DNA from: Microbacterium sp.
GTDB lineage: Bacteria > Actinomycetota > Actinomycetes > Actinomycetales > Microbacteriaceae
Assembly (NCBI RefSeq): GCF_026393345.1
Contig: NZ_JAPLAI010000035.1
Span: 1-64,000 of the forward strand
Reading direction: 5' to 3'
Length of the DNA stretch: 64,000 nucleotides
Numbering within the stretch: the stretch's first letter is position 1; every line of letters begins with the position of its first letter. The translations under genes were made by a program, and so were the position numbers. Under the pieces are notes generated by a model that saw only the letters and a program-made list of their open reading frames with translations, ran no database searches and was not told where the DNA came from. Below, piece after piece: positions 51,135 to 54,072 of the stretch.

Positions 51135-51213
51135 CACACGCTCACTGTAGCGACGCGCGCCCCGCGTCCGCAGGGTCGGCGGCGAAGCCAGCGCGCTGCC
51201 GCGCACGGCAGCA

Positions 51214-51242
51214 GCGGCGGCGGCGGCGGCGGCGGCGGCGGC
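51214..51242. repeat. Trinucleotide (GCG/GGC) microsatellite, about 29 bp
   Basis: Uninterrupted GCGGCGG... tract beside the left inverted-repeat element. Confidence 0.95.
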
Positions 51243-51250
51243 ATGAAGTT

Positions 51251-51313
51251 CGCAGAATCGCTCGAACTTCGCAGCATCCACCCGAAATCCTGCGAACTTC
51301 GCGCGATTCTGCG
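51251..51313. repeat. 63-bp inverted-repeat element, copy 1 (23-bp arm, 17-nt loop, 23-bp arm)
   Basis: CGCAGAATCGCTCGAACTTCGCA - gcatccacccgaaatcc - TGCGAACTTCGCGCGATTCTGCG. Confidence 0.9.
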
Positions 51314-51341
51314 GAGATGATGCCGCACCGCCGAGCGTGCT

Positions 51342-52205
51342 TTACCGTGCGAGGTGGAGGCCGGCGGCAACGGCCCGGCGGATCACCGCCGCCACTGCGG
51401 GCCAGTCATGCACCACCTGGGCATAGCTGAAACGCAGCACCGTGTACCCCCGCAACCGGAGCTCGGCGTCATGGGCGATGTCTCTGGTGCGTTGGGCGCT
51501 GTCCGAGTGGAATTCGTAGCCGTCGATCTGGACCACGAGCCGATCACCGATCACGAGGTCAACGGGCCGGCCGGCGAGTGTGACCTGCTGGCGCACCTGC
51601 AGCCCCCAGCGCCGCAGCGGTACCACGACCAACGTCTCGAGGCCGGAGTCGGACAGACCGCCGACGGCCTGGGCGAGCTCGCGGGCCGCGCGCGTACCCC
51701 AGCGCACGGAGCGGAGGTACTCGGCAGCAAGCCGTTCGACCCTCGCGGCGGACTCCCACAGCACCAGGGCGGTGTCGAAGGGCTCACACACCGCGATGTG
51801 CGCGAGCGCATCCTCGATGCTCGCCAGGAGCGATCCGAGAGGTACCGGAGCCACCGGCTTCGTCCAGTGGAGCGCGCCGTCCCAGCCGGCGGGCGTCCGC
51901 GCCGAACCGGATCCGGGGGTCATATGCAGATGCACGGCCCCGAGCGCGGATGCGGGGATCCACCAGGCCCGCCGGCGCGCGAGCGTCGTGCACGAGACCC
52001 TGCCGCCCGCCCGGGCTGCGGCGACCAGGTCCGGCGCCGCCGCGGGGAGGGCGACCCAGGCGCGACGGATCATCTCGGCCGGACCGTCGCGCACGAAGGA
52101 CCGCAGCAGCGAGGTCCCGAATCCCGCCTGCCGTACCTCGTCCCGGTGGGCGATGGACCCGTGCGACACGAGCCAGTCGTAGAGTTCCGCTCCGCTGCGT
52201 TGCAT
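51342..52205 (-). CDS. AbiEi-like N-terminal wHTH plus DUF559 (Vsr-like nuclease fold) protein
   Basis: 'MQRSGAELYDWLVSHGSIAHRDEVRQAGFGTSLLRSFVRDGPAEMIRRAWVAL' and C-terminal 'RPVDLVIGDRLVVQIDGYEFHSDSAQRTRDIAHDAELRLRGYTVLRFSYAQVV'. Confidence 0.9.
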   Translation of the reverse strand: MQRSGAELYDWLVSHGSIAHRDEVRQAGFGTSLLRSFVRDGPAEMIRRAWVALPAAAPDLVAAARAGGRVSCTTLARRRAWWIPASALGAVHLHMTPGSGSARTPAGWDGALHWTKPVAPVPLGSLLASIEDALAHIAVCEPFDTALVLWESAARVERLAAEYLRSVRWGTRAARELAQAVGGLSDSGLETLVVVPLRRWGLQVRQQVTLAGRPVDLVIGDRLVVQIDGYEFHSDSAQRTRDIAHDAELRLRGYTVLRFSYAQVVHDWPAVAAVIRRAVAAGLHLAR

Positions 52206-52413
52206 TCCGGAATCGTGCTGCCATCGCCGACCGCTGCGAGCCGGCGACCATGAATCGGTGCGCAACGGCGCCCGACCGCATCCCTGGGGAGGAACGAACG
52301 CATCCGTCCGCCCCGATGCGTCACGCCCGAAGCTCTGAGCCGTCCGGCGCATGAACCGCGCGGACGCGGACACGAACCGCGGAATGCAACCGCGGGATGC
52401 GGGTCACAAACGT

Positions 52414-52476
52414 CGCAGAATCGCGCGAAGTTCGCAGAGATCAGCCCACATAGTGCGAAGTTCGCGCGATTCTGCG
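52414..52476. repeat. 63-bp inverted-repeat element, copy 2 (23-bp arm, 17-nt loop, 23-bp arm)
   Basis: CGCAGAATCGCGCGAAGTTCGCA - gagatcagcccacatag - TGCGAAGTTCGCGCGATTCTGCG; near-identical arms to copy 1. Confidence 0.9.
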
Positions 52477-52500
52477 AAGTTCAGGAACCGCCGCCCGGGC

Positions 52501-54072
<1,572 letters not shown>

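Follow-up and report, generated by a model that had tools for sequence, protein, structure and literature searches.

The closest described arrangement is that of the REPIN-RAYT systems, or REPtrons, of Pseudomonas and E. coli (PMC3116915, PMC8266576). In these, a single-copy and vertically inherited gene is bordered by palindromes, and the elements are inverted pairs with a spacer, which are dispersed extragenically and also form clusters. The element type is specific to the gene lineage, and solo elements are found in lineages without the gene. All of these features recur in the system analysed here. Nucleases of the DUF559/MTES_1575 Vsr family, to which the same Pfam families belong as to the protein of this study, have been reported as Caulobacter VsrA, linked to cytosine methylation and mismatch repair (PMC12907096), and as the MTES_1575 REase (PMC3710099). 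In the literature searched, no prior description of palindromic elements with DUF559/MTES_1575 nucleases was found, which is not a proof of absence.

The DNA under study is a stretch of 64,000 nucleotides from Microbacterium sp. (the window). We consider it rather probable that the window contains one locus from a system in which a nuclease and arrays of ~77 bp co-evolve, similar to REPIN/RAYT but with an unrelated enzyme. Lineage-matched versions of gene and element across dozens of species point to a previously undescribed nuclease-plus-repeat system. The coordinates of the features are collected in Table 1.

Table 1. Features of the nuclease locus in the window.
Feature	Position	Strand	Remarks
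Nuclease gene (P0001), 287 aa	51342..52205	-	AbiEi-like part at the N-terminus, nuclease domain of MTES_1575/DUF559 (Vsr) type at the C-terminus
Vsr-type nuclease domain, residues 189-280	51366..51641	-	alignment of 35 homologues; PDB profile match
3'-side palindromic element, 77 bp	51244..51320	.	21 bp beyond nuclease stop
3'-side element arms	51251-51273, 51291-51313	-, +	17-nt centre
5'-side palindromic element, 77 bp	52407..52483	.	between guaB stop and nuclease promoter region
5'-side element arms	52414-52436, 52454-52476	-, +	17-nt centre
Putative competence-type promoter box TCCTCCCCA	52285..52293	-	ends 79 nt before ATG at 52205
guaB	52501-54003	-	promoter side of nuclease gene
TMEM175-like gene			other side of nuclease gene from guaB

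The sequence-only reading had described four 23-bp arms in two inverted pairs. Its coordinates and strands are right, all four arms match the degenerate core with 0 mismatches, and no such arms arose in 100 dinucleotide-preserving shuffles of the window. The gap of 17 nt between the arms of both window elements and the arm distances of 28 bp to the nuclease stop and 24 bp to the guaB stop were reproduced, and the similarity of the outer arms was re-measured as 30 nt at 93% (29 bp in the earlier figure). At ~77 bp, the element is longer than first described. Each arm comprises two tandem motif copies (consensus CGAASTTCGCAGAATCGCGCGAASTTCGCAGGATT) about 19 bp apart, and by inversion of the arms the element alignment gives four motif copies per element around a variable centre. 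Between the two elements lie one 287-aa minus-strand gene and a short upstream region. A short (GCGGCG)n tract (window 51206-51241) adjoins the 3'-side element. An Rfam search of the window returned no match.

The combination of AbiEi-like and Vsr-like parts that had been proposed for the protein was borne out by structure prediction. In a comparison of the AlphaFold model (pLDDT 92.5) by Foldseek, the N-terminal part resembled the AbiEi antitoxin 6y8q (E 2.3e-5) and the C-terminal fold resembled I-Bth0305I 3r3p (TM 0.79 by target length), the matches being assigned to the protein halves by aligned lengths and by the sequence-profile match. The sequence profile matches PDB 3hrl and 3r3p across the residues of the C-terminal domain (I-Bth0305I profile E 0.0012). 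Pfam gives PF18741 at 2.2e-10 and PF04480 at 1.8e-7, over the curated cut-off, and at E<=1 it reports the nuclease domain only and not the AbiEi-like part. D216, Q226, D228, R239, D242 and D246 show no variation among 35 aligned homologues, and H233 is nearly invariant. As modelled, the protein is homing-endonuclease-like, with an AbiEi-like part and a Vsr-type (I-Bth0305I-like) nuclease.

The draft genome (2.9 Mb, 88.9% complete) was searched for copies with a degenerate pattern and then with a covariance model. Twelve strong 77-bp copies scored 55-90 bits, the next match being at 32.5, and the density is about one element per 240 kb. All 12 are inverted doublets with the same arm spacing and differing centres. 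The dispersed copies are mostly intergenic and near gene 3' ends, as judged from mechanical ORF calls. The two window copies are the only ones of the 12 that bracket a nuclease gene, and the genome's eight other DUF559/MTES_1575 matches lie at a distance from every element copy or on different contigs. Taken alone, 12 dispersed copies with only two beside the nuclease looked like a refutation of the link between gene and repeat. Element clusters with a spacing of about 100-160 bp were observed in several species (L074 2989-3369, L075 2924-3298, L053 1501-1718, L124 3944-4289, L067 1266-1575).

Single-stranded, the window copies have a much stronger predicted fold than shuffled sequences (z -6 to -9). 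The expectation that the hairpin pairing is conserved as such was not upheld: paired cells across the 12 copies amount to 80.2%, below the 82.8% of shuffled controls, so that changes in the arms are not compensatory, and conservation of an RNA structure was rejected on this ground. Since changes in one arm are left uncompensated, the conserved feature is the DNA sequence array and not the hairpin fold. The arms are kept as sequence, which therefore favours a fixed array read as duplex DNA over recognition of a folded hairpin.

In a model search, the elements were present, patchily, in 34 of 59 Microbacterium genomes, partly drafts; the model (R1) was built on the variant of the window genome, under-counts other motif types and gives rough E-values. 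Homologues in five other species, 57-65% identical, each lie between two elements. These first five loci were picked via their elements, and the unbiased test is therefore a homologue scan by protein alone, which yielded 79 named loci. In a comparison of 5' and 3' flanks, 59 of the 79 exceeded the 95th percentile of mismatched-gene pairs. Under a stricter control within the same locus, 55 of 78 loci beat the maximum of 468 shifted windows. The shared flank segment at the 78 loci had a median score of 23.75, and shifted windows of these loci gave 11.0; roughly one locus in four fails the strictest bracketing test. At the guaB site, 20 loci have an element pair around the nuclease gene. Distant paralogues have other motifs on the same palindrome plan, among them the types TTCTGAAGGA, TTCTGCGGCC, TCGGTCAACC, CTCGGGAGGA and CAGGTCAACC; the arrays of M. 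aoyamense are of the TCGGTCAACC type. The site-C paralogue of M. oleivorans has its own, different element, of which the flanking pair is 99% identical and three more near-full-length copies are dispersed. In genomes G028 and G056 a close homologue is present and R1, which misses other motif types, detects no elements genome-wide, though the G028 gene is bracketed by a palindrome of its own. The REPtron-like layout first suggested for the window thus extends to close homologues bracketed by matching palindromes, with a palindrome sequence that co-varies with the gene lineage, and the link between gene and palindrome across Microbacterium homologues is real. The alternative that the sequence-only reading had allowed, repeats spread over the genome with no tie to DUF559 genes, holds in its first half, ten of the 12 copies being away from any such gene, and fails in its second, given the bracketing across loci.

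The same reading had regarded the unit as a candidate mobile cassette, and this part did not survive. Paralogues are confined to about six syntenic sites, with an orientation that does not change; neither an excess of target-site duplications nor a footprint of insertion was found, and a hopping cassette is ruled out by the synteny. The nuclease gene keeps to fixed sites through inheritance and does not hop. Insertion into pre-existing hairpins gave no convincing signal (mean inverted-repeat run in the flanks 4.4 against 4.1, p 0.04). The order of guaB and TMEM175 in relatives was followed by tblastn with the window proteins, and nine relatives have the two genes in direct succession, their tblastn ends 32-89 nt apart, and lack both the nuclease gene and the element. 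Among 22 relatives without the nuclease behind guaB, a solo element was present in two (G046 and G048) and none was detectable in 20; the element is therefore not the ordinary terminator of guaB, the other possibility raised at the outset. The dispersed copy behind yajQ is private to the window genome, being absent in 29 relatives; a search there for an exact empty site yielded no insertion ends, as the neighbouring gene varies too. G008 (L244 3225-3863) has a second type of nuclease at the guaB site, a 43% paralogue that lies behind guaB and is oppositely oriented.

The elements resemble one another more within a genome (0.71) than between genomes (0.55, permutation p<2e-4), and dispersed copies resemble the nuclease-flanking copies of their own genome at 0.66, against 0.54 otherwise. 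Across different species, 23 loci have a nuclease gene at the guaB site. For the 20 species in which both elements were placed there, the 5' and 3' elements of one locus agree better (0.68) than same-side elements of other species (0.50, p<5e-5). Similarity of elements follows that of nucleases (Mantel r=0.29; 0.28 when partial on guaB divergence, p=2e-4), where the species are related, the loci are not independent and the permutation tests in these comparisons correct for kinship only partly. At least 12 model matches were found in 11 of 18 genomes with a close nuclease homologue and in 2 of 40 without (Fisher 8e-6). Copies per genome number about 1-20, which is low for a REPIN family. G009 and G034 have many elements and no close homologue of the window nuclease, for which loss of the gene or use of the elements by another paralogue is possible. 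Nuclease copies with in-frame stops occur in G055 and G020, both element-rich genomes, and would fit decay of the gene after spread of the elements. A RAYT (Y1_Tnp, PF01797) is missing from the window genome and from 58 of the 59 genus genomes; the sole PF01797 match lies at G041:C15:20980-21342. G041 is without palindromic elements, and a RAYT as driver was rejected.

The promoter box of Table 1 supports by its distance the ATG start over an upstream GTG. The form CCTCC[AC]CA was found on the sense strand in 52 of 80 nuclease 5' flanks and on the other strand in 2, with 0.9 expected. Of 65 box-bearing nuclease loci, 48 have an in-frame start 77-80 nt beyond the box, against 2-10 for control spacings. 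In the window genome, the TCCTCCMCA box and its spacing also precede comF, a DUF4192 gene and other DUF559 genes, and the second SSB gene has the box with an apparent start that is nearer. For comEA, named by its position before comEC and by sequence, the box stands 78-79 nt before the start in 8 of 20 genomes, that of the window included. Besides the window, the box was noted at L307, L306, L302, L353 and other loci. These occurrences suggest that expression of the nuclease is probably coupled to competence and make the genes with the box a candidate regulon for actinobacterial competence. In a 2026 paper, the competence regulon of Micrococcus luteus was termed currently unknown (PMC12849477).

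The bracketing, dispersal, concerted evolution, co-occurrence, fixed gene sites and shared box computed here can be assembled into a system of two parts. One would be a host-fixed gene for an AbiEi-like/Vsr-type nuclease, and the other ~77-bp palindromic arrays, with two motifs per inverted arm, around the gene and scattered genome-wide. From these patterns we infer binding, cutting and mobilisation of arrays by the nuclease, and control of the nuclease by competence. The most likely binding target of the protein is the four-motif array in its duplex form, with a specificity that would drift between species. Nicking or cutting by the nuclease may drive copying or gene conversion of arrays, which could so spread to new intergenic sites and remain matched to the local nuclease, the expression of which is probably tied to competence via the TCCTCCMCA box. 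In its fullest form, the proposal is that of a convergent, non-RAYT class of selfish REPIN-like repeats, in which a competence-induced Vsr-type nuclease whose DNA specificity shifts rapidly copies or converts its own four-motif arrays around Microbacterium genomes, and a genome may hold several independent nuclease-array pairs; we put this forward tentatively, at somewhat less than even chance.

An alternative which we regard as unlikely, yet deserving of consideration, is that the protein is a host DNA-binding regulator or chromosome-organising nuclease, the arrays being selected operator or landmark sites that co-evolve with it as in a regulon, without mobility. Vertical inheritance at fixed sites, the conserved AbiEi-type DNA-binding fold, an array geometry that stays fixed while the centre diverges, arms conserved as sequence and not as base pairing, and the box common to nuclease and competence genes would all be expected of such a regulator. 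It accounts poorly for dispersed arrays that are mostly at gene 3' ends and not at promoters, for the existence of array clusters, and for the one array position tested (yajQ), which is not conserved between species; moreover, near-identical flanking pairs in a single species, such as that of M. oleivorans, need conversion or copying. Still less probable, in our judgement, is that the arrays are competence-linked marks of self and non-self, by which a nuclease acting at the time of uptake would steer or limit recombination of incoming DNA. The species-specific array sequence and the box with its spacing, common to nuclease genes, comEA and comF, are consistent with such marks, but the arrays at their density are far too sparse for an uptake sequence.

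We give hardly any credence to the hairpins being ordinary terminators or mRNA-end structures with a nuclease nearby by coincidence. The elements do stand just beyond stop codons and fold strongly, but a scan for intrinsic terminators found no T run after the G+C-rich hairpin, the bracketing is gene-specific at dozens of loci, the base changes are not compensatory, and the element is missing behind guaB in most relatives without the gene there. As a full explanation this is refuted; individual copies may act secondarily as terminators.

If the nuclease-array reading is true, REPIN-like repeat populations can be maintained by an enzyme unrelated to RAYTs. It would also suggest a role for a very common and uncharacterised actinobacterial nuclease family. 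Natural nuclease-array pairs of diverging sequence allow direct tests of DNA recognition, and the shared promoter box is an entry point to the control of competence in Actinomycetota.

A homing endonuclease cleaves the allele from which it is missing. The EDxHD/Vsr-like homing endonuclease I-Bth0305I shares the fold of its catalytic domain with the window protein; here, by contrast, the element itself is presumed to be the recognition sequence, and neither an intron nor an intein is present. The AbiEi antitoxin has a fold like the N-terminal part, which is here fused to a nuclease domain, with no AbiEii toxin gene in the cassette. Unlike a pair of IS elements or MITEs, the locus has no target-site duplications and the gene no mobility among multiple sites. 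In REPIN-RAYT, the enzyme is an HUH Y1 tyrosine transposase, whereas here it is a Vsr-type nuclease with an AbiEi-like N-terminus (PF18741/PF04480). The arrays differ as well, with four motif copies each, few copies per genome and no compensatory pairing, duplex DNA being likelier to be recognised than a single-stranded hairpin, and the element alignment holds no conserved GTAG/CGTC tag of the kind that lies beside the REPtron palindrome. Lacking both the HUH enzyme and the tag, the window system is not a REPIN-RAYT or REPtron despite the similar layout, dispersal, inheritance and co-evolution, and there is a fair chance that it represents a separate, convergent class.
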